Positions 9,116 to 19,794 of a DNA stretch of 44,456 bases are shown here, piece after piece. Position numbers and translations under genes: made by a program. The notes under the pieces are model-generated. The model saw nothing but the letters and a program-made list of their open reading frames with translations. It searched no databases and was not told the DNA's origin. Position 1 is the first letter of the stretch, and each line of letters starts with the position of its first letter. Origin of the DNA: Candidatus Peregrinibacteria bacterium CG1_02_54_53 (GTDB lineage Bacteria > Patescibacteriota > Gracilibacteria > Peribacterales > Peribacteraceae); assembly GCA_001872575.1 (NCBI GenBank), contig MNWP01000016.1, positions 1 through 44,456 of the forward strand, in the 5' to 3' direction.

Positions 9116-10048
9116 CTAGGCTTCAGAAAGCGCTAAAACGTGTCCCTTTATGACCTGTAAAACGCTGTCGAGGTCTTCATTGACAAGAATGTGATCGAAC
9201 AGGTGCGAGGCCCGCGTAAAGAAGTCCAAATCCGCCTGAGCATTGATCAGCCGCTCCTCAATTTGTGCGTCCGTTTCGCGTCCTCGTGCACGCATTCTGT
9301 GCAGGAGATGGCTGAGCATGGTGCGCTTGCTCGCACCGGGGGGCAACAGGCCGAACGAGAGAATGGAGCGACGACCGAAGTGTGCCGCAAGACTGCGCAG
9401 CAGGTGCATTTCGGTGACGACGACGGGAAGCTTTCCTTGTTCCCAAATGGTTTCAATATCACTCTTTCGATACCCGTAGCAGCGCTGCTCGGAATCCGAG
9501 GGAAGATGCGTCCATGCGACGAGTGCGTCGCTTTTCTCCAGCCGATCGAATTCTTTTTGCGATACATATTCGTACTCCTGATCGTCACCGTCTTTCGGTG
9601 CACGACTGGTGACGATGGGTACTTTTGCCGTGAAGTCGCCCAACATCTTCGTCAGCAGGAGTGAGACGGTGGTTTTTCCCACGCCTGAAGGGCCGGTAAA
9701 CGCCAGAATGTAGCCGGGGAACTTTTGCATTTCAATTTTCGGCTGAGCAATACGTTCCGTCATTTCGTACGCAATATCGTAGAGCCGCAGGCCCGCTTCA
9801 TTGACGCGGCTCAAGTGCATGCGTGGCAGAACAACTTGGCCGATGACAGGCTCGCCGATACCCGTGAGTGCGCCAAGGACGCGCTGACCATCAGAGAGTT
9901 CGATGAGGCCGATGCGGTGAGGCCGATCGGAAAATCCTTTCGGCGGATGCGTGATGATTGTGAAGGAGAGAAGCGTACCGGGGAGCATCCGCTCCTTTCG
10001 GTTTCGGATGGCTCGGGCGGCGACGGCGGGTGAATCAGGTAGTCGCAT
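9116..10048 (-). CDS. DUF35-like OB-fold fused to a guanylate-kinase-like P-loop kinase
   Basis: The 310-aa product is one uninterrupted frame. Residues about 22-97 match the OB-fold half of DUF35 proteins (GTLLSFTIITHPPKGF, GLIELSDGQRVLGAL, IGQVVLPR). The zinc ribbon that normally precedes it is missing: there is no Cys before residue 190. Residues 112-305 resemble guanylate kinase, with P-loop GPSGVGKT (119-126), TSRAPKDGD where GMP kinases have TTRxPRPGE, CYGYR in place of YYGT, and a C-terminal ILVNEDLDSVLQVI. The GMP-contacting EIDVQG motif reads TEMHLL, so the acceptor may not be GMP. The gene overlaps the thiolase end by 14 nt. In archaea a DUF35 protein holds thiolase and HMG-CoA synthase together, so the N-domain probably does this; the kinase role is unknown. 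The start at 10048 is chosen because upstream residues merely shadow the thiolase. Confidence 0.8.
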   Translation of the reverse strand: MRLPDSPAVAARAIRNRKERMLPGTLLSFTIITHPPKGFSDRPHRIGLIELSDGQRVLGALTGIGEPVIGQVVLPRMHLSRVNEAGLRLYDIAYEMTERIAQPKIEMQKFPGYILAFTGPSGVGKTTVSLLLTKMLGDFTAKVPIVTSRAPKDGDDQEYEYVSQKEFDRLEKSDALVAWTHLPSDSEQRCYGYRKSDIETIWEQGKLPVVVTEMHLLRSLAAHFGRRSILSFGLLPPGASKRTMLSHLLHRMRARGRETDAQIEERLINAQADLDFFTRASHLFDHILVNEDLDSVLQVIKGHVLALSEA

Positions 10049-11159
10049 GTTCGGGAGAGTGATGAAGAATGTGCACGCAGCATGTGGCACCGGCGCCACC
10101 GAAGTTGTGTGCGAGGCCGTATCGCCGGCCGGAAGCCTGCAGCTGTTTGCTGACATCAATGATCTGTTTGATGCCCGTTGCAGCGACCGGGTGGCCGCAG
10201 GCTTTCAGGCCTCCGCTTTGGTTCACGGTCATTGATTGTTCTTGTTCGTACCACTGAATTCCTTCGCCCGGCTCTGCAAATCCCAGATCTTCGAGGGCGA
10301 TGAGTGCTGCGATGGAGAAACAATCGTGCAGTTCGAGGTGAGCGATGTCGCTCGTCGAAATATTCGCTTCGTCCAGCGCCCGTTGCGTGGCATCTTTGGT
10401 GGCTCCAAAGGAGGTGATAATGGGACGGTCGGTAATGCTGACGGTATCGGTGCTTGTCTGCGATCCGGCAATGCGAATATCAGAGCGGTGTTTGGTCGAG
10501 AGTAAACAGGCCGCAGCTCCGTCGCTTACGGGTGAGCAATCGAGCAGTCGCAGGGGATCGGCCACGATGGTGCTTGCGCCAATCTGTTGCGGTGTCATTT
10601 GCTGACGAAATTGCGCGAAGGGATTATTGACGGCATTGGCGTGGTGGCGGGCGCTCACGAGATTGAGACGCTCACGCGTGAGGTTGAAATCATACATGTA
10701 GCGCTTCGCGATAAGCCCGAAGATGCCCGGAAAGGTGAGCCCCGAGGGAGCATCTTTTTCGCTGTCTGCAGCGCCCATGAGGGCGGAGGCGATTTCGTCT
10801 GAAGAGGAATCGGTCATCTTTTCGGCTCCAACCACGAGTACGGTTTCGGCCCTCCCGCTTTCGAGCAGAGCGCATGCGGTGTGCATGGCAATGGATCCCG
10901 AGGCGCATGCCGCTTCGACACGTACGGCCGGCGGTCGGTGAGGGAGCAGAGAGGAGGCGATGGCACCCAGATGCGCCTGGCCGCTCATCGCTTCACCCAG
11001 CATGTTGGCGACGACGATGAAATCGATATCCAGCGCCGAGCAGGGAGCGGAGGCGATGGCGGCGTCTGTTGCTTCTTCGATGAGTGCGGGCAAGCTCTTG
11101 CTCCACCACTCTCCGAATTTGGTCTGGCCGATTCCAATAAGCGATATGTCCTTCTGCAT
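10035..11159 (-). CDS. Acetyl-CoA acetyltransferase (archaeal/SCP-x-type thiolase)
   Basis: This enzyme would condense two acetyl-CoA to acetoacetyl-CoA, the first mevalonate step. The 374-aa product has the nucleophilic Cys85 in VEAACASGS, the LHDCFS segment typical of SCP-x/archaeal thiolases, and the C-terminal KACGHPVAATG with the catalytic His. It lies 35 nt after the HMG-CoA synthase gene and overlaps the DUF35 fusion gene, the same trio as the archaeal thiolase/HMGCS/DUF35 complex. The ATG at 11159 is the first that gives a thiolase N-terminus (DISLIGIGQTKFGEW); a TAGAAT box stands 14 nt upstream. Classical PhaA/AtoB-type thiolases look different. Confidence 0.92.
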   Translation of the reverse strand: MQKDISLIGIGQTKFGEWWSKSLPALIEEATDAAIASAPCSALDIDFIVVANMLGEAMSGQAHLGAIASSLLPHRPPAVRVEAACASGSIAMHTACALLESGRAETVLVVGAEKMTDSSSDEIASALMGAADSEKDAPSGLTFPGIFGLIAKRYMYDFNLTRERLNLVSARHHANAVNNPFAQFRQQMTPQQIGASTIVADPLRLLDCSPVSDGAAACLLSTKHRSDIRIAGSQTSTDTVSITDRPIITSFGATKDATQRALDEANISTSDIAHLELHDCFSIAALIALEDLGFAEPGEGIQWYEQEQSMTVNQSGGLKACGHPVAATGIKQIIDVSKQLQASGRRYGLAHNFGGAGATCCVHILHHSPEHATT

Positions 11160-11194: not shown

Positions 11195-12235
11195 TCACGA
11201 AACTGGCGATTTCTCGTAGTTTTGTCGATATTCTCCGTAGGAGACGTAGTGCAATGATCGTTCGTCTGCGGGCAGTGCGGGACCGTCGCGCAACATCGTG
11301 AACAGAAAGGCATCCGCCCCCGCTCCCGATCCGTACGACACCAAGAGAATCTTTTGGTTCTTTTTTGCTTCTTGCAACACTTGTACGAGTCCGAGGAGCG
11401 AACATGCACTGTAAGTGTTGCCGATGTGTGGCACGATGAATCCGGTTTGCATCTGCTCCTTTGACATTTTGAATTCTTTGGCAATCTTGCTCGGGAACTT
11501 GGCATTCGGCATGTGAAGCACGATGTGATCGACTTCACTTAATTTCGTTTTCGTAACAGAGAGAATGCCGGTGAGCGCCTGCCGCACATGGAGGAAGTAT
11601 CCGGGTTCCCCCGTAAAACGTCCTGCATGTTCGGGGTACGGGGCACCGGCTGAGCGCCAGAAGTCGGGTGTATCGGTTGTGAACGAAATGGTCTTTTCGA
11701 TGCGGCAAATGGCGTTGTCGGTGGAATCGGGACCAACGATCAATGCAGCAGCTCCCGCTGCCGCCGTGTACTCCAGTGCGTCGCCGGGCTTCGCCTGCGC
11801 TTTATCAGTTCCGATGGCCATGCCGTATGTCGCCTGCCCGCATTTCACGAATGCATCCACGATCTGCAGACCCGCGGTGCCCGCCTTGCAGGCGAATTCC
11901 AGATCCGCGCAGTATGAGAAGGGATGCAGATCCAAAGCCGCTGCCAGCATGCCGCTCGTGGGTTTGACCGCGTAGGGGTGACTTTCGGAACCGACGAAGA
12001 TGGCACTGATTTCGGACGATTGGATGCCCGCCATGTCGATGGCTTGTTTTCCGGCTTCAAAGGCGAGCGTGAAACTGTCTTCGTCTGTCCCGGCGACGGC
12101 TTTCTCTTTCACGCCAAGCCCGCGAATGATTTCTTGCGGGTCACGTTCCCAGTGCTTGGCGATCTCCTCCGTCGTGATACGGTTATTGGGGATAAACATG
12201 CCGAAGCCGACGATGGCGGAATGGGAATGAGGCAT
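11195..12235 (-). CDS. Hydroxymethylglutaryl-CoA synthase, archaeal type
   Basis: This enzyme would condense acetoacetyl-CoA with acetyl-CoA to HMG-CoA. The 346-aa product matches the short archaeal form: an N-terminal IVGFGMFIPNNRIT, the region EIIRGLGVKEKAV, catalytic Cys116 in FACKAGTAG, HMPNAKFPSK carrying the active-site His, and GNTYSACSLLGL and YGSGAGADAF near the C-terminus. Bacterial and eukaryotic HMGCS are longer with different surroundings. A TATACT box lies 12 nt before the ATG. It leads the operon with thiolase and the DUF35 fusion. Other thiolase-fold enzymes (KAS III) are excluded by the DLEFACKAG context and the neighbours. Confidence 0.93.
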   Translation of the reverse strand: MPHSHSAIVGFGMFIPNNRITTEEIAKHWERDPQEIIRGLGVKEKAVAGTDEDSFTLAFEAGKQAIDMAGIQSSEISAIFVGSESHPYAVKPTSGMLAAALDLHPFSYCADLEFACKAGTAGLQIVDAFVKCGQATYGMAIGTDKAQAKPGDALEYTAAAGAAALIVGPDSTDNAICRIEKTISFTTDTPDFWRSAGAPYPEHAGRFTGEPGYFLHVRQALTGILSVTKTKLSEVDHIVLHMPNAKFPSKIAKEFKMSKEQMQTGFIVPHIGNTYSACSLLGLVQVLQEAKKNQKILLVSYGSGAGADAFLFTMLRDGPALPADERSLHYVSYGEYRQNYEKSPVS

Positions 12236-12515: not shown

Positions 12516-14207
12516 TCAATAGACTTCCGTCAGATAACACTGTTCGCAATAAACTATTTCCGGTCGCGAAGGCTGGTAGGCCGTTTCAATCTCTTTTTGA
12601 CACTTCTGACATGTTCTTTTCCACAGTTTTCTCGGTCGACGTTGCTCCATGCGATCCAAATATCGCTGATTTGGATGCCTTTTCGGCAAAGGCAGGCCCG
12701 TTCGGCGGTAAAAATCCAATTCCTGCTTAATGATGATGAAAGGCTTGTCGCTCACTTCGCATTTGATGGCCCAATTGAGGACGTCGTCGGGTACATCTGC
12801 AATGGTCTCGGGCAGACGAACAGCAGCAATACTGCGTGCCGCCTTGGGCGCAGGAGGTTCGTAATCCGACCATCGGATAGTACGCGCAAGTGCCTCTTCC
12901 TTCGTCAGCGGATAGTATTCCTGTGCACGAGATTGGTTATAGCCGAACGGGGAAAAGCTCAAAGGGAAGAACTCCCCCCATTCCCTGGTTTTGCGCATGT
13001 GTTCGATAATTTTCGGAACCAGATGTTTATATTCCTCCTGCGTGTACTGTTTATTCAGGATGCAGAACGCGCCGTGATTGATGCCCGCACAACCGAAAAG
13101 ATCGTGGGAGTTCTGCGTACAATCACAATACGCCGCATTTTTGTTGTCGTAGGTGAAATGGCAGGCGAGCAGATTGTACGCATTGGTGATGGCATGGCAC
13201 TCATACATCATCTCTGCCCAGCCGACGTGGTAAACGTCGAGTGAATCCTTGATGTCGATAGCATCGACGCAATGCCGACAATCCTCCATTTTGATGGAGT
13301 CGAAGCACTCAGTGCAGTTCTTCGAGAAAAAGAGGAGGTCGCCACTGCATCCTTCCGATTGCAGTTGATAGATTGCAGGATGGAGTGCAATGCGCTCCTT
13401 CGTCTGAATATATTTCTCTCTGTATTTTTTCAGTACGGCAGAACTGAGTGGAAATATTTCTCGTATTTTCCGTTGATAGTCTTCAGGTGAGTACTGCTTG
13501 TTTTCGATACAGTGTTGCTTGTTTCGCAAATTCCAACACAGAAAACAGTCTTTGCAGTTCATGCAGTCATAGCAGAACCAGACGTTCTGACAGCGCTTAA
13601 TAAAGTCGCAGAAAAATGCCTGATAACTTCCCCATGCGTAGTACGTCTCGTAGCAGAGCTCACAACCTTCATTTAAGTAGGAGCAATCTACGCAATCGCG
13701 GCAGTGATCAATAACCCAATCGGAGTAGTAGATATCCTCACTCTCGAATGTGACGGCGGATAGATAGCAATTCTTATTCTTTCCCGAGTGATTCGTGTAG
13801 TGAGCGTTTTCACTTTGCTTGTTCACCAGCGCAACCCGGGGCACCTCAAGTTGCAATTCTCGAAACTGATCGAAGAAAGGGCGATTGAAATCGAATTCTC
13901 GTCCATAGTCGAGTGCATTCCACTTATCCGACCACCAGATTTCCTGCTCATAGACTTTAAACGGGGAATCCGGCGGATACATGGAGATGATTTCCTTTCG
14001 GTTGAAATCACATGTTCTTCGATACATAAAGCGTTCATTTCTCCATGCGAGACGACGTTGCTGCCGGCAATCGGGGCAGAGCGTGGGTGGAGAAATCGAG
14101 TACTTCTTTTCTGCAATGATGGGAGAAACCATTTCCAATGCCGCGAGATCACCATCGGTGATCTCGAAGCTTTGCTTGCACCGGTGGTTCTTGCAGATGA
14201 CCTGCAT
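12516..14207 (-). CDS. Large Cys-rich zinc-ribbon protein (CPR-type, often mislabelled CaiB/BaiF)
   Basis: The function is unknown. The 563-aa product opens with a zinc-ribbon-like CKNHRC and CPDCRQQRR, continues with WRNERFMYRR and PFKVYEQEIWWSDKWNALDYG, and then has a central field of CxxC/CxxxC pairs (residues about 160-380: CRDCVDC, CYDCMNCKDC, CTECFD, CRHCVD). It closes with a C-terminal ribbon CQKC...YCEQCY. Two copies of an NKQY(S/T)xE motif flag internal repeats. Proteins of this architecture recur in CPR genomes (from memory). I chose the ATG at 14207 because it begins just before the first CxxxxC and lies 4 nt after the HMGR stop; 14243 would overlap HMGR. The gene sits inside the mevalonate cluster. 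Metal binding is inferred from Cys spacing. It is unrelated to CoA transferases by any feature I can see. Confidence 0.8.
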   Translation of the reverse strand: MQVICKNHRCKQSFEITDGDLAALEMVSPIIAEKKYSISPPTLCPDCRQQRRLAWRNERFMYRRTCDFNRKEIISMYPPDSPFKVYEQEIWWSDKWNALDYGREFDFNRPFFDQFRELQLEVPRVALVNKQSENAHYTNHSGKNKNCYLSAVTFESEDIYYSDWVIDHCRDCVDCSYLNEGCELCYETYYAWGSYQAFFCDFIKRCQNVWFCYDCMNCKDCFLCWNLRNKQHCIENKQYSPEDYQRKIREIFPLSSAVLKKYREKYIQTKERIALHPAIYQLQSEGCSGDLLFFSKNCTECFDSIKMEDCRHCVDAIDIKDSLDVYHVGWAEMMYECHAITNAYNLLACHFTYDNKNAAYCDCTQNSHDLFGCAGINHGAFCILNKQYTQEEYKHLVPKIIEHMRKTREWGEFFPLSFSPFGYNQSRAQEYYPLTKEEALARTIRWSDYEPPAPKAARSIAAVRLPETIADVPDDVLNWAIKCEVSDKPFIIIKQELDFYRRTGLPLPKRHPNQRYLDRMEQRRPRKLWKRTCQKCQKEIETAYQPSRPEIVYCEQCYLTEVY

Positions 14208-14211
14208 GCAC

Positions 14212-15411
14212 TCAGCGTGCCAGCTTCTTATGTGAAGAAGCAAGCGTCTGCGTTGCCTGAGATGCCAATAAACTCACTTCCCCTGCGAGGACGGCTGCGC
14301 CGATGCTCTCTGCCAGTTGCTGTGGGGGACGCAGGCAGGTTTTGGGCTTTAAAATAAGCGAAAGGCACTGATTCTGTGCCGGAAGCGCCGTGCCGCCACC
14401 GCGAATACCGACGAGAATAGCGGGGAGGCGGGTTTGGATGGTGATTCCATCCTGAGCAAGAGAAACCGTCGTATCTGCGAGCGATCCCTCGACCACGTGC
14501 GCGCTGTCCTGCCCCGTTGCCAGATACAAGGCCGCGATCACATTGGCGACGTGCAAGTTGCTGCCGATTGCTCCTGCCAATGACGAGCCGACCCTGAGTT
14601 TTGCATCGGCAACGGCAAGCAATTGTTCCGGGGTCGTTTTCAAAACATCCATAATGACGGAAGAGGGGATCTTTGCCTTGGCTGTGACCTCGTATCCGCG
14701 CCCACGGTCATGCGTGCGCCGACTTGGTTTTTTGTCACTGTCCACGTTGGCGGCAATCGTGATGAGTAGTGCATCCAATTGTTCGGCCAGCCAGTCGCCG
14801 ATTGCCTGCGCAGCGATCGTGACCATGTTCATACCCATCGCTTCGGATGTGTCACAGAAAATTGTGAGGAAGGTGTACTCGTCAGATTCATCGAGGTCAT
14901 AGCGAAGAATTTTGAGGTGTCCGCTTGTTGCTTCACTGACCTTCTTCCATTTAGGCTCGAACCTCCGGATTTCTGCGGCGAGGGAGGGCTTGCCCTGAGG
15001 CGTGGAGCGCCGAAGGGTGTACGATTGTTCTTTTCCATTTTTTGGCTTCAGAACAATCGATCGGGACATGCCGTGAAGGACGGATCGCACATGTACGCCT
15101 CCGGATTGCGCTGTTACTTTGCATCCGCGATTGATACTCGCAACGAGTGCCGCTTCGGTGGTGGCGAGTGGAAGAACGATATCGATTTTCTCGCCCGAAC
15201 TCATGGTGACCATAAGCGGTCCCGCAATGCCGATCGGCAAGGGAACCGAGCCGATCATCTGCTCACAATTCTTTTCATCGGCCTGACCGATGCGCGACTC
15301 TTCCGTTGCCAGAGAAGTAAGGTCAATTCCAGTCTCATCCTCGACGCGCTTACGTCGTTCATCACAACGCTTTTGAGCGTTCAAGCCGTCGGGGAGATTG
15401 CGAAGGTCCAT
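14212..15411 (-). CDS. 3-hydroxy-3-methylglutaryl-CoA reductase, class I type
   Basis: This enzyme reduces HMG-CoA to mevalonate with NADPH. The 399-aa soluble product has EQMIGSVPLPIGIAGPL (about 50-66), catalytic Glu86 in TTEAALVAS, SEAMGMNM, catalytic Lys in NVDSDKKPS (about 219-227), GIRGGGT near 333, and the C-terminal catalytic His394 in SSHKK. The SEAMGMNM, DKKPS and C-terminal SHKK forms match class I (eukaryotic/archaeal) rather than class II. There is no membrane anchor. The gene begins a minus-strand unit with the Cys-rich gene 4 nt downstream. An NADH-using variant cannot be excluded. Confidence 0.95.
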   Translation of the reverse strand: MDLRNLPDGLNAQKRCDERRKRVEDETGIDLTSLATEESRIGQADEKNCEQMIGSVPLPIGIAGPLMVTMSSGEKIDIVLPLATTEAALVASINRGCKVTAQSGGVHVRSVLHGMSRSIVLKPKNGKEQSYTLRRSTPQGKPSLAAEIRRFEPKWKKVSEATSGHLKILRYDLDESDEYTFLTIFCDTSEAMGMNMVTIAAQAIGDWLAEQLDALLITIAANVDSDKKPSRRTHDRGRGYEVTAKAKIPSSVIMDVLKTTPEQLLAVADAKLRVGSSLAGAIGSNLHVANVIAALYLATGQDSAHVVEGSLADTTVSLAQDGITIQTRLPAILVGIRGGGTALPAQNQCLSLILKPKTCLRPPQQLAESIGAAVLAGEVSLLASQATQTLASSHKKLAR

Positions 15412-15636: not shown

Positions 15637-16644
15637 CTAGATGATCTTGGCACCCGGCCCGACCTTTGCTTTGAAGATCGTGCATCCTTTCTGCGCGTTC
15701 GCGAAGGAGAGAACGGCATCTTTAGCCTCATCTGGACACACAAGGTGGACTGTTGGTCCCGCATCCATCGTGAAGAGCACGGGGATGTGTTCCTTCGATC
15801 GCAATCCTTTGATCGCATTCACGATGCGATGTGTGTCTTCATTGAGGTAGTGCAGCGAGGGCGAGGATGTTTCCATCACGTGATGCATATCAAGGCAGTC
15901 TTCCTCCGTCACGTTTTGCAGTTTCTCAAAATCTTTCATGCGGATGGCGTCGATGCATTCCTGTTGGCGTCGCGAACGAATCGTTTCGATGCGTGTAGCG
16001 TAGAATGGGCTTGTAGAGGCCAAGGCGTGGCCTTCTGTAGAGCCGACTTTCTTCTCTTCCAGAGCAGGGATCAAAACGATGTCATGGAGCAGCCAGTGAC
16101 GTTCGTCCGCGATCTGCTCGCTCCACGAGCTCCCCAGTTCCATGCCGCTGCCTTCTTCCAGTGTCGAAAATCCGCCGAAGATACTCCGTGCCGCCGAGCC
16201 AGATCCCAGCCGCGCGAGAATGCTCGTCTGCATGTCGGTGAGTGTGATTTTCTCCGCAACCAATCCGGCCACGGCTTTTGCAAGGCAGCTGAAGACCGCG
16301 GCAGACGATGCGAGACCGATTGCGGGTGGAATGTGGGAACGGACGGTGATTGCGCTGTGCTCCGGGAGGGCATCTTTTGCGTGGAGTGTTTCGAGATAAC
16401 GGCGCATGAGCGAGAGGACCTTGCGAAAGCGTTCGATGTCCTTCTCCCTCAGCGCTTTTTCTCCGCCATCCGCCAGAAACGAGCGAACGGAAAACGCATC
16501 TGCTTCCTGTATGACGATTTCCACTGTTGGACGGTCAAGGGTCATCGAGAGCGAGGCGGCCTGTGGCAGGCGCAACTCCTCACTGCGGTTGCCCCAATAC
16601 TTTATGAAGGCGATATTGGGCGTTGAATGCGCTTTTGCTTGCAT
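15637..16644 (-). CDS. Diphosphomevalonate (or phosphomevalonate) decarboxylase, GHMP family
   Basis: The 335-aa product has the MDD layout: STPNIAFIKYWGN (8-19), the P-loop-like GLASSAAVFSCLAKAV (110-125), GSGSAARSIFGGF (147-159, with the substrate-binding Arg153) and the catalytic Asp294 in TMDAGPTVHL. MDD converts mevalonate diphosphate to IPP. In classical MDDs the first motif reads YWGKR; here Lys is replaced by Asn19. From memory that Asn form is seen in phosphomevalonate decarboxylases of Chloroflexi, which give isopentenyl phosphate, so the substrate is uncertain. The gene is divergent from the HAD gene with a shared TATAAT region, and 225 nt separate it from HMGR. Confidence 0.85.
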   Translation of the reverse strand: MQAKAHSTPNIAFIKYWGNRSEELRLPQAASLSMTLDRPTVEIVIQEADAFSVRSFLADGGEKALREKDIERFRKVLSLMRRYLETLHAKDALPEHSAITVRSHIPPAIGLASSAAVFSCLAKAVAGLVAEKITLTDMQTSILARLGSGSAARSIFGGFSTLEEGSGMELGSSWSEQIADERHWLLHDIVLIPALEEKKVGSTEGHALASTSPFYATRIETIRSRRQQECIDAIRMKDFEKLQNVTEEDCLDMHHVMETSSPSLHYLNEDTHRIVNAIKGLRSKEHIPVLFTMDAGPTVHLVCPDEAKDAVLSFANAQKGCTIFKAKVGPGAKII

Positions 16645-16713: not shown

Positions 16714-17565
16714 ATGCCGATACATGATGTCAATGTGATGATCCTCGATAATGACGGGGTTCTGCGGCGCGAGGGGAAGCAATTGCCGGGAGTGGTGGAG
16801 CTCTACGCGCAACTGGAGAAGCGGGGGATCAGCAATGTCCTGCTCTCGAACAATTCGCGAGTGACTTCCGATGGGCTCGTTCGGCAAATGAAACAGTTCG
16901 GTGTGAAGGATTTTTGCAAAGATCAGGCGATGACATCCGCTGAGGCGGCCGCATCATGGATTCGGCACAATCCTTCCGCCGATCGGCTCGAAGACATGCG
17001 TGTTTTTGCGGTCGGTGAAGAGGGCGTTTTCCGGTCTCTGCAGGAATTGGGCATTGCGCTGGCAAACGATCAATGGGATGGGCAACAATGGTCCGGCCTG
17101 CCGACGGATGTCGTGGTGGGCTTCAACACGAAGATGGATTATGCGACCACGATGGCTCCGGCATGGAATGCCATTCATCGTGGGTCCCGATGGATTCACA
17201 CCAATGGGGATGTTTCGTACAGGAATGCCGCAGGGGCGATGCTGCCGGCGAATGGGGCGCAACTTGCGTACCTCTCCACGACAGGCAAAGAGCCGGCTGC
17301 TGTCGTCGGGAAACCGAATAGGGAAATGGCTGAATCTGCTTTGCGGCGAATGAATGTGACACAGGACCAAGCACGCATTGCGGTGGTTGGCGATAATCTG
17401 ACGGAAGATATGGGTCTTGCCGATAACCTGCGCAGTGCAGGATGGAACGCCGAAGGATGGATGGTTCTCACCGGCGTGACGACAGCCGAAGACTGCGATG
17501 ATCCTTCTGTCGATAGGGTGTTTCAGGATATTCGCCAGATCACGAGGGCGCTGCTCTCTCGTTAG
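16714..17565 (+). CDS. HAD-family phosphatase, NagD/phosphoglycolate type
   Basis: The 283-aa product contains the four HAD motifs: DNDGVL (Asp nucleophile and acid/base pair, about 12-17), LLSNNSR (motif II, about 44-50), the Lys in VVGKPN (about 198-203), and GDNLTEDMG (motif IV). A large C2-type cap lies between motifs II and III, placing it with NagD-like phosphatases. Motif I has Asn between the two Asp residues in place of the usual Leu or Met. It is the only plus-strand gene inside the mevalonate block, 3 nt from the convergent mevalonate kinase stop. A role in trimming isoprenoid or sugar phosphates is speculation. Confidence 0.85.
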   Translation: MPIHDVNVMILDNDGVLRREGKQLPGVVELYAQLEKRGISNVLLSNNSRVTSDGLVRQMKQFGVKDFCKDQAMTSAEAAASWIRHNPSADRLEDMRVFAVGEEGVFRSLQELGIALANDQWDGQQWSGLPTDVVVGFNTKMDYATTMAPAWNAIHRGSRWIHTNGDVSYRNAAGAMLPANGAQLAYLSTTGKEPAAVVGKPNREMAESALRRMNVTQDQARIAVVGDNLTEDMGLADNLRSAGWNAEGWMVLTGVTTAEDCDDPSVDRVFQDIRQITRALLSR

Positions 17566-17568
17566 GCA

Positions 17569-18438
17569 TCAAACGCTGAGCAGAGGGAGTACGCTCTGTG
17601 CTCCTTTGCGGATCACCGGCAGAATCAGGTTGGGGTTCTTGTGCAGTGCCAGCACTGTCCCTCCTCCACCTGTTCTTCCACCCGCCCCCAGCACCTTGGC
17701 TGCTCCACCCAGTCGCATGATTTCCGTAATAAGTGTCTGCACGGGTTTGGGTACGACGCCGAGCGCCACCTGTGCGCGGTGATGGTCACGAAAGACCGTG
17801 CGGATGTCCTCGCCCTTCCTCAGTCGTTCGGTGCACTTGCCGATCGCGATGAGGGCCTGCTTTACGCGGGGATCATCCGAACGCTCCTTCACCCATGCGA
17901 CGAGCTCAGGTGTGGATTCATGGGGTGTTCCGGTATCGGCCAACAGCGCACCGCGCAGAATATCTTTGGGCAGCGCGATGTGCTGAGGTTCCGATCCTTT
18001 GCGAAAGAGAATGGGTTTCTCTTCCCAAATCACGGCGAAGTCGATGCCACTGTGCCCCGGGTTCATGGCGTCTTCCACCTTCAGAGCTTCGGCACGCTTG
18101 CCTTCACCGAGCAGGCAGCGGGTAAGGGCGATGATGAGGGCGGTACTGGAGCCCATACCCTTTTTGAGGGGCAGCTGATTACGGATAATAAGTTTTCCCC
18201 TGAAGGAGGCGGCTTGATCTTGCTCGAGATGCAGGATGATCTTTTGGGCGTAGTCCTCCCACTCTTCTCCGCCGCCGATGCCGAGCCACTTGAGCGTCAG
18301 TGCCCGACTTGATGGATTTCCCTCGAACGTCACCTGCATGGCGATAGGGGCGGGCACGGCGATTCCCGGTTGGCCGAACACCACGGCATACTCGCCGGTG
18401 AGGATGATTTTGCCGTGGGCGATGGATGTATGCTTCAT
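17569..18438 (-). CDS. Mevalonate kinase, GHMP family
   Basis: This enzyme phosphorylates mevalonate at C5 using ATP. The 289-aa product has the N-terminal AHGKIILTGEYAVVFGQP (7-24) typical of mevalonate kinases, the phosphate-binding LKKGMGSSTALIIAL (91-105), catalytic Asp133 in GHSGIDFAV, and the C-terminal GAGGRTGGGGT loop. It is slightly shorter than most. The HGEYAVV-type N-terminus and the SGID motif favour mevalonate kinase over phosphomevalonate or galactokinase. It lies in the same direction as uppS, with a REP-like hairpin between them, and converges with the HAD gene. Confidence 0.9.
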   Translation of the reverse strand: MKHTSIAHGKIILTGEYAVVFGQPGIAVPAPIAMQVTFEGNPSSRALTLKWLGIGGGEEWEDYAQKIILHLEQDQAASFRGKLIIRNQLPLKKGMGSSTALIIALTRCLLGEGKRAEALKVEDAMNPGHSGIDFAVIWEEKPILFRKGSEPQHIALPKDILRGALLADTGTPHESTPELVAWVKERSDDPRVKQALIAIGKCTERLRKGEDIRTVFRDHHRAQVALGVVPKPVQTLITEIMRLGGAAKVLGAGGRTGGGGTVLALHKNPNLILPVIRKGAQSVLPLLSV

Positions 18439-18542: not shown

Positions 18543-19223
18543 TTATCCGCCGAATCTCCGGGAACGTTTGGTGAAACCGTCCACGGCCTGCCTTAGGTCG
18601 TCCGTTGTGAAATCGGGAAAGAATTTATCCAAGAACACCCACTCGGCATAAGCGGCCTGCCAGAGAAAGAAGTTCGACGTGCGTTGTTCCCCGCTGGTGC
18701 GGATGATGAGGTCTAAGTCCGGGAGTTCCGGATGATCGAGAAGCGCGCGGAGCTCCTGCTCGGATGCAATCGGGTTATTGACTTTGGCGAGCCCACGGAT
18801 GATCTCATCTTTTCCGCCGTAATCGATGGCAAGGTGCAATGAGAATTCTGTGAAATGGGCGGTTTCTACACATACCTCCTCGATCAGTTTTGCAAGTGAA
18901 GGGGGGATGCGGTCTGTGCGTCCCGAATGCAGCAGACGGATCCCTTTTTTTTGCAGTGTGGGACGCTCTTTTTGAATGTAGTTCTCTAATAGCGTCATGA
19001 GTTTGCTTACTTCTTTCGGGTCGCGTTTCCAATTCTCGGTTGAAAAACACCACACGGTGAGGACGCCGATGCGCGGATCGGCCTGACACCAGTCTGTTAT
19101 CGTGCGGAAGTTCTCAACAGCTTTCTCGTGCCCCTGCCATGGGTGCCAGGCGCGCGCCTTCGCCCAGCGGCGATTGCCGTCGGGAATGATGGCCACGTGC
19201 ATAGTCTCAGGATTTTTTGCCAT
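18543..19223 (-). CDS. uppS: Undecaprenyl diphosphate synthase (cis-prenyltransferase)
   Basis: This enzyme adds IPP units in cis to an allylic diphosphate to form the C55 carrier lipid for envelope polymers. The 226-aa product has HVAIIPDGNRRWAK at 9-22 with catalytic Asp15, the FSTENWKR segment, LHLAIDYGGKDEI, and the signature DLIIRTSGEQRTSNFFLW with AYAEWVF. The first ATG (19223) overlaps the idi stop by 17 nt; an internal ATG at 19202 would avoid overlap, and either is possible. It follows idi directly, so carbon from the mevalonate route feeds this step. A trans-type FPP synthase is not in the window. Confidence 0.96.
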   Translation of the reverse strand: MAKNPETMHVAIIPDGNRRWAKARAWHPWQGHEKAVENFRTITDWCQADPRIGVLTVWCFSTENWKRDPKEVSKLMTLLENYIQKERPTLQKKGIRLLHSGRTDRIPPSLAKLIEEVCVETAHFTEFSLHLAIDYGGKDEIIRGLAKVNNPIASEQELRALLDHPELPDLDLIIRTSGEQRTSNFFLWQAAYAEWVFLDKFFPDFTTDDLRQAVDGFTKRSRRFGG

Positions 19224-19749
19224 CTCGACGGGGGGAACGCATGATCATGGCGAAGGCCAGATGAAACCACGGTGCGTACTTCGCGGGCTCCGTGTGCATG
19301 TCTTTCGTCAGTTCCTCCGTCGTGATCCATTTTGCTTCATTCACCTCAGCGGGATCGGCTTTGAGAGGTGGATTTCCGGTAACGGATCCGGTGAGGATCG
19401 TGTCGTACTCGTACTCGGTGCCTCGTCCTCCGGGATCATCGGCGCGGTAGACGAACGAGGGCCCCTCGGTGAGCGGACAGGTGAATCCGAGCTCCTGGTG
19501 CAGCCGCAGTTGTGCGGCATCGGGCAGCACTTCCTCTTCTTGTAAGTGGCTGCAGCAGGTGTTGGCCCAGATGAGCGGAAAGAGCGTCTTCTCTTTGCTT
19601 CGTTGTTGAATGAGCAGCTCTTGTCTTCCTTTACGAAAAACAAATACCGAAAAGGCGCGGTGGAGCATTCCCGGTGACGCATGGGCTTCGGCACGGTCGG
19701 AAGTGCCGGTGATCACCCCGTCTTCGGTACAGAGAAGGACAAAGGACAT
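19207..19749 (-). CDS. idi: Isopentenyl-diphosphate isomerase, type I (Nudix fold)
   Basis: This enzyme interconverts IPP and DMAPP. The 180-aa product carries LIQQRSKEKTLFPLIWANT followed by CCSH (catalytic Cys region), the Nudix-like LRLHQELGF, the metal-binding YEYDTIL segment, and NEAKWIT with the catalytic Glu. This is the type I metal-dependent enzyme, not the FMN-dependent type II common in archaea and Firmicutes. The start is ambiguous: ATGs at 19785, 19761 and 19749 are in frame, and 19749 gives the best family N-terminus (MSFVLLCTEDG). It overlaps uppS. With uppS it forms the bacterial back end of the pathway. Confidence 0.92.
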   Translation of the reverse strand: MSFVLLCTEDGVITGTSDRAEAHASPGMLHRAFSVFVFRKGRQELLIQQRSKEKTLFPLIWANTCCSHLQEEEVLPDAAQLRLHQELGFTCPLTEGPSFVYRADDPGGRGTEYEYDTILTGSVTGNPPLKADPAEVNEAKWITTEELTKDMHTEPAKYAPWFHLAFAMIMRSPRRDGKKS

Positions 19750-19794
19750 CGGTAATAGCATGGCGGCTGTACTGCGTCTGCACAAGCATCTGCT

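Follow-up and report, generated by a model that had tools for sequence, protein, structure and literature searches.

In Peribacteria, a mevalonate-pathway scaffold is fused family-wide to a repurposed guanylate kinase, a candidate isopentenyl phosphate kinase

The structure 6esq_E is the DUF35 subunit of the archaeal complex of thiolase and HMG-CoA synthase (HMGS). In a related solved complex, a helix and an OB fold make up most of the contact with the thiolase, which they wrap (PMC12329534), and the DUF35 structures solved by 2019 all bind zinc (PMC6996347). Isopentenyl phosphate kinase (IPK), a member of the amino-acid-kinase family, is found in archaea, Chloroflexi and plants (PMC3857490). 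For Peribacteria, a 2016 analysis of complete genomes reported the genes of the mevalonate pathway up to mevalonate 5-phosphate and from mevalonate 5-diphosphate on, and called the pathway "near-complete" (PMC4736985).

Here we describe a gene from a contig of Peribacteria, a group of tiny uncultured bacteria (the window, meaning the whole stretch of 44,456 nucleotides that was analysed) whose product resembles parts of these systems. With the archaeal thiolase/HMGS DUF35 protein it shares the helix and OB fold, its best sequence and structure match and the same gene neighbours, but it lacks the zinc ribbon and carries a kinase domain at its C-terminus. This domain is like guanylate kinase (Gmk, yeast 1gky) in fold (Z about 24), P-loop, lid arginines and phosphate clamp, and differs in a longer segment after PP and in having a separate gmk beside it in the same genome. 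Known IPKs are alike in the reaction that we propose and in the pairing with a phosphomevalonate decarboxylase; however, they have the amino-acid-kinase fold, whereas the fusion domain has the guanylate-kinase fold of an unrelated family.

The fusion gene and its neighbours

The fusion gene lies at one end of the following genes of the window.

9116..10048, minus strand: DUF35-OB / guanylate-kinase-like fusion gene (P0001, 310 aa)
10035..11159, minus strand: acetyl-CoA acetyltransferase (archaeal-type thiolase), overlapping the fusion gene
11195..12235, minus strand: HMG-CoA synthase, archaeal type (TIGR00748 and NF003274 above cut-off)
14212..15411, minus strand: HMG-CoA reductase (HMGR; PF00368)
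15637..16644, minus strand: decarboxylase annotated as diphosphomevalonate decarboxylase (N19 and H206 as in the Anaerolinea phosphomevalonate decarboxylase)
17569..18438, minus strand: GHMP kinase of the mevalonate-kinase lineage (best solved match S. aureus mevalonate kinase 2x7i, E 2e-26)
18543..19223, minus strand: polyprenyl (undecaprenyl) diphosphate synthase (PF01255)
19207..19785, minus strand: isopentenyl-diphosphate isomerase type I (Nudix; NF002995 and TIGR02150 above cut-off; start codon uncertain)

The gene order is thus isomerase, undecaprenyl diphosphate synthase, GHMP kinase, decarboxylase, HMGR, HMGS, thiolase and fusion, with two further genes interspersed. A HAD-family hydrolase is encoded on the opposite strand (16714-17565, plus), flanked by the decarboxylase and mevalonate kinase genes, and a 575-aa Cys-rich protein with a weak treble-clef zinc-finger match lies between the HMGS and HMGR genes (12516-14243, minus). 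The fusion gene runs from an ATG at 10048 to a stop codon at 9116-9118 and shares 14 bp with the thiolase gene (11159→10035). The initial annotation had described this overlap, an archaeal-type HMGS nearby and both halves of the protein in one frame; thiolase and HMGS were confirmed as the next genes, and of the 74 genomes in the window's family, 63 have the fusion frame uninterrupted, with 43-100% identity. Because the same open frame recurs in so many genomes, a frameshift or an assembly join was ruled out.

The fusion is full length in these 63 genomes, so that the search of other Peribacteria suggested at the outset was answered positively, and searches of 279 further genomes from the same class yielded none. 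Every genome with an HMGR gene carries it (62/62), neither reductase nor fusion is present in 10 of the 74, and the remaining two have the fusion or its kinase domain with no HMGR match. We conclude from the reductase-positive genomes and from the ten that have neither that the fusion is tied to the mevalonate pathway. The fusion, which joins a mevalonate-pathway scaffold to a repurposed guanylate kinase, is real and spans the family. No published account of a DUF35-guanylate-kinase fusion was found in the literature searched.

Several genomes deserve separate mention. A contig labelled Candidatus Kaiserbacteria (L061, JACRFK010000003.1) carries a full fusion with 51% identity and is possibly a mis-binned or mislabelled Peribacteria contig. 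Five family genomes (G029, G034, G043, G044 and G046) have neither HMGR nor IspH, and undecaprenyl diphosphate synthase was undetected in them as well; these may have lost isoprenoid synthesis altogether.

A DUF35 half without a zinc ribbon

The N-terminal half consists of two elements.

9989..10030, minus strand: N-terminal helix, residues 7-20 (AlphaFold models)
9758..9985, minus strand: DUF35 OB fold, residues 22-97, without zinc ribbon (PF01796; 6esq_E; Z 10.2)

HMM searches, which had been proposed for both halves, placed PF01796 (N-terminal half) and PF00625 (C-terminal half) above their curated cut-offs, and the PF01796 OB domain matched residues 24-73 with 38.2 bits (Pfam cut-off 27.1). 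The top solved relative of the N-domain profile was 6esq_E (E 1e-10), ahead of other DUF35 subunits. The AlphaFold model of the N-domain (pLDDT 86) had only DUF35 structures among its ten best structural matches, with 6esq_F first (Z 10.2 over 93 residues, rmsd 2.7), and general OB folds scored below them, at Z below 7. The assignment to DUF35 made in the initial annotation is therefore borne out by both sequence and structure, and its picture of a mevalonate scaffold carrying a kinase was the right one.

Also as annotated, the Cys ligands are gone: the OB part of the window protein has no Cys, and residues 1-110 of any one of the 63 fusions contain at most two Cys. We had considered loss of the zinc ribbon as a special trait of the fusion, but free-standing DUF35 proteins of other Patescibacteria share this absence, and it therefore does not go with the fusion in particular. 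Examples of such free-standing 98-99 aa OB proteins without ribbon are at L187:7972-8268, L192:8385-8681, L193:12096-12389 and L191:8999-9292. These genes are located between thiolase and kinase genes, and several clusters in other Patescibacteria families read HMGR, HMGS, thiolase, DUF35 (97-101 aa), GHMP A, GHMP B and decarboxylase.

In the 74 family genomes, PF01796 matches were essentially limited to the fusion, with a second, sub-threshold match in one genome, and the fusion gene adjoins the thiolase and HMGS genes both in the window and in the sampled relatives. From homology and operon position, we infer that thiolase and HMGS are held by the helix and the DUF35 OB fold in the manner of the archaeal complex.

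A guanylate-kinase fold with an altered acceptor site

The C-terminal half and its site residues are as follows.

9134..9715, minus strand: guanylate-kinase-fold domain, residues 112-305 (PF00625; Z 24.6 to GMPK)
9668..9694, minus strand: P-loop GPSGVGKTT, residues 119-127 (K125 in 54/54 fusions of genomes without a phosphomevalonate-kinase-like GHMP gene)
9572..9616, minus strand: acceptor loop, residues 145-159 (alignment to yeast guanylate kinase)
9467..9484, minus strand: R-C-Y-G-Y-R, residues 189-194 (alignment of fusions)
9296..9373, minus strand: residues 226-251, RRSILSFGLLPPGASKRTMLSHLLHR, a non-acceptor motif largely kept even in site-decayed proteins

PF00625 (Guanylate_kin) matched residues 117-301 with 45.8 bits against a Pfam cut-off of 25.2, and the AlphaFold model of this half (pLDDT 86) matched guanylate kinase with Z 24.6 and rmsd 1.8. 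The functional residues of the yeast enzyme are the P-loop lysine, the phosphate ligands Arg38, Arg41, Tyr50 and Tyr78, and the lid, and Ser34, Glu69 and Ser80 contact guanine. In the profile alignment from which all equivalences to yeast residues were taken, R149, K152 and Y159 of the acceptor loop correspond to Arg38, Arg41 and Tyr50, and Y191 to the phosphate ligand Tyr78. Conservation was counted over the 54 fusions from genomes without a phosphomevalonate-kinase-like (PMK-like) GHMP gene: K125, Y159, R189, Y191 and the lid arginines R251, R255 and R266 are invariant, and R149 is present in 53.

The positions that read guanine in yeast are different. I145 takes the place of Ser34, Ala, Ser or Thr that of Glu69, and Y193 that of Ser80; Asp98 of 1gky is replaced by Ile or Val, and Glu stands at Asp100, the fourth guanine-reading position. 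The altered acceptor motifs described in the initial annotation (KDGD 152-155, CYGYR 190-194 and TEMHLL 212-217) were all present. Judged from these alignments, the domain has kept the P-loop, lid arginines and phosphate clamp of a guanylate kinase and has lost its guanine-reading residues.

With the TIGR03263 equivalog model, the fusion scored 79 bits and the genome's own gmk 138, relative to a cut-off of 160.45 that even this gmk missed. The separate gmk, on C40 of the window genome, had been looked for at the suggestion of the initial annotation, and it has Ser, Glu, Thr and Asp at the guanine-reading positions. An earlier idea that the fusion is the cell's guanylate kinase moonlighting is unsupported because the genome has this enzyme, which also rules out the fusion as the only guanylate kinase of the cell.

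Animal phosphomevalonate kinase (PMVK) has a P-loop NMP-kinase-like architecture, as does the fusion domain, and the two possibly catalyze the same reaction. PF04275, the PMVK family, gave no Pfam match in the fusion protein at E up to 0.01; homology to animal PMVK was rejected on this result and because the domain groups with guanylate kinases. Animal PMVK was not among the 50 structural matches listed for the kinase model, which proves nothing either way.

The missing kinase step and its candidate enzyme

Two GHMP kinases are all that the window genome encodes, and GHMP proteins likewise number exactly two in most fusion genomes; the solved-structure matches of the 289-aa GHMP protein are almost all mevalonate kinases. 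No known IPK was found among the amino-acid kinases of the window genome (one genome, 96% complete): these are pyrH, proB, an aspartokinase (by our own reading of its sequence) and an argB-like protein, so we conclude that this genome has no classical IPK. The MEP pathway was rejected as an alternative source of isoprenoids since IspH was absent from all 13 genomes searched.

The specificity of the decarboxylase bears on which kinase step is missing. The best solved match of the native decarboxylase was 6n0x (222 bits), which is the mevalonate-5-phosphate-bound phosphomevalonate decarboxylase of Anaerolinea (PMC9254496); decarboxylases of other organisms scored 175 bits or less, the 6n0z variant aside. 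In the alignments, 6n0z differs from 6n0x at two positions (YWGN→YWGK and GSTQGH→GSTQGM, Asn→Lys and His→Met). According to the work of Thomas et al. as cited in PMC9254496, mutagenesis switched the Anaerolinea enzyme to the diphosphate, and going by that citation 6n0z is presumably this switched variant. Lys21 is listed as conserved in the diphosphate enzymes (eLife 2013 table, PMC3857490). At the Lys21 position the native Peribacteria decarboxylases carry Asn (50/50 readable), and at the Met196 position His (52/52), whereas decarboxylases encoded in genomes with a PMK-like gene, whether of this family or not, carry Lys or Arg at position 21. Arg27 was dropped as a sign of phosphomevalonate decarboxylase; it and His196 also occur in the decarboxylases of Patescibacteria with a PMK-like gene, and thus only Asn21 discriminates. 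These residues, like those of the Anaerolinea enzyme, suggest that isopentenyl phosphate is most likely the product of the native decarboxylase, in which case the guanylate-kinase domain would be the only candidate kinase for that phosphate in the cluster.

We propose that the fusion protein has two separable jobs. The helix and DUF35 OB fold would hold thiolase and HMGS, and the guanylate-kinase-fold domain, as an ATP-dependent kinase, would no longer use GMP as its acceptor but a small monophosphate from the mevalonate pathway that is not a nucleotide. The GHMP mevalonate kinase would convert mevalonate to mevalonate 5-phosphate, the native decarboxylase would turn this, in the manner of a phosphomevalonate decarboxylase, into isopentenyl phosphate, and the guanylate-kinase-fold domain, for which isopentenyl phosphate is the most likely substrate, would produce isopentenyl diphosphate. 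That a scaffold for thiolase and HMGS carries a non-homologous IPK is, on the sequence comparisons, a reading that we lean to about as strongly as we doubt it. We are a shade more tentative about the full proposal, in which this would be the first IPK of the P-loop NMP-kinase fold, derived from guanylate kinase, tethered to a scaffold and completing a family-wide alternative mevalonate pathway. The comparison across the 74 genomes suggests that the domain most likely supplies the absent kinase step, and we know of no guanylate-kinase-family enzyme that performs the last kinase step of an isoprenoid pathway.

Another explanation is that the domain is a phosphomevalonate kinase, as the initial annotation had offered, after which the decarboxylase would convert mevalonate 5-diphosphate to isopentenyl diphosphate in a classical pathway with a non-homologous kinase. 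The gap that the literature names in the pathway is exactly this step, the window decarboxylase passes the TIGR01240 cut-off for diphosphomevalonate decarboxylase, and operons of other Patescibacteria have a mevalonate kinase gene and a PMK-like gene directly 3′ of thiolase-DUF35. Two genomes, G035 and G072, combine an intact fusion with a third decarboxylase type that has Lys at position 21 and with no PMK-like gene (for G072, by GHMP count); should that decarboxylase accept only the diphosphate, the kinase would have to act on mevalonate 5-phosphate. However, Asn and His stand in the native decarboxylase just as in the monophosphate-specific enzyme of Anaerolinea, its best match, and the comparison with solved structures led us to give up phosphomevalonate kinase as the leading reading in favor of IPK. 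We regard it as unlikely, yet as a serious rival still. The third decarboxylase type (L234:304-1311 in G035; L282 in G072) has an 8-residue insertion in the substrate-phosphate loop.

Nine family genomes contain a third GHMP gene and a distinct decarboxylase, both with relatives in other Patescibacteria at ∼40-53% identity. The fusion has lost two or more of its clamp or P-loop residues in eight of these genomes, compared with none of the 54 genomes lacking the gene (Fisher p 2e-9, a raw value that ignores kinship). The substitutions are K125R/R149C/Y159T/R189C in G013 and G015, R149C/Y159L/R189G/Y191C in G038 and G039, Y159 to V or H with Y191A in G005, G016 and G017, and Y159E/R189Y/Y191E in G048. 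On the tree the decayed state needs four changes, and a paired test of decay against the PMK-like gene gave three pairs for, none against and one undecided, too few for significance. All nine genomes have the other decarboxylase type instead of the native one. GHMP phosphomevalonate kinase, whose fold is unrelated to that of the fusion domain, thus appears as its genomic exchange partner. Decay of the kinase site is also consistent with the fusion being a phosphomevalonate kinase, but replacement of the decarboxylase would then be unneeded; under the IPK reading both are expected because both steps would change together. Asn (TxNTGQ) replaces the catalytic Asp in the decarboxylases of these nine genomes, and likewise in those of five among eight other Patescibacteria (L035:6776-7750, L187:10286-11275 and homologues), so that their chemistry is uncertain and they may not act as ordinary decarboxylases.

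The PMK-like identity of the third GHMP protein is suggested by motifs shared with Listeria phosphomevalonate kinase 3k17 (QGxGSxxDxAxxxYGG; VGWTG/VGYTG), and the protein also scores above the mevalonate kinase cut-off TIGR00549. This score, and a branch near archaeal mevalonate kinases, would fit the idea that the guanylate-kinase-fold domain is the mevalonate kinase and the 289-aa GHMP protein the phosphomevalonate kinase. We find this barely credible, since ERG8 and Gram-positive phosphomevalonate kinase models fit the third GHMP protein better than the 289-aa protein, the solved matches of the latter and the motifs of the former both argue against it, and an acceptor that bears no phosphate would hardly require a phosphate clamp to be kept.

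The eight genomes that keep the protein despite a decayed site raise the possibility that the domain is a non-catalytic protein-interaction module, like the guanylate-kinase domains of MAGUK scaffolds. Given the essentially invariant P-loop, clamp and lid arginines in the other 54, we consider this highly improbable as the whole explanation; persistence of the protein nevertheless makes an additional, non-catalytic role of the domain probable. In the site-decayed fusions, residues 226-251 are mostly unchanged and the OB and scaffold surfaces retained. The reverse holds in G014, where the only orphan kinase domain of the fusion family besides the 63 full-length fusions has its catalytic residues intact and several of residues 226-251 altered. 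These opposite patterns point to two separable constraints, catalysis and assembly.

The orphan domain of G014 lacks the OB domain and lies within a ribosomal-protein gene cluster (L039:5501-6256, minus strand). Searches of this genome (99% complete) detected neither HMGR nor a GHMP kinase or prenyl synthase, which counts against an IPK; the pathway could fall in an assembly gap, as it occupies one or two loci in relatives. Together with the clear guanylate kinase homology, G014 would suit a kinase that acts on a nucleotide or other monophosphate, as a sensor or on another metabolite, and is merely housed on the mevalonate scaffold. We think this improbable, given that every fusion has lost the guanine readers, that the family strictly co-occurs with the pathway, and that acceptor-site decay goes with a GHMP gene of the mevalonate pathway.

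With an IPK on the scaffold, the step that Peribacteria reportedly lack in the mevalonate pathway (PMC4736985) would have a concrete candidate enzyme, and the decarboxylase residues suggest that the Peribacteria enzyme is probably misannotated, as happened in Chloroflexi (PMC3857490). The recurrent association of decay with a PMK-like GHMP gene ties an enzyme family known only from metagenomes to one metabolic step, and the site-decayed homologues are ready-made inactive controls. If our reading is true, a guanylate kinase turned isoprenoid kinase would be a fresh case of non-homologous replacement, and one polypeptide would join isoprenoid functions from the start and the end of the pathway.
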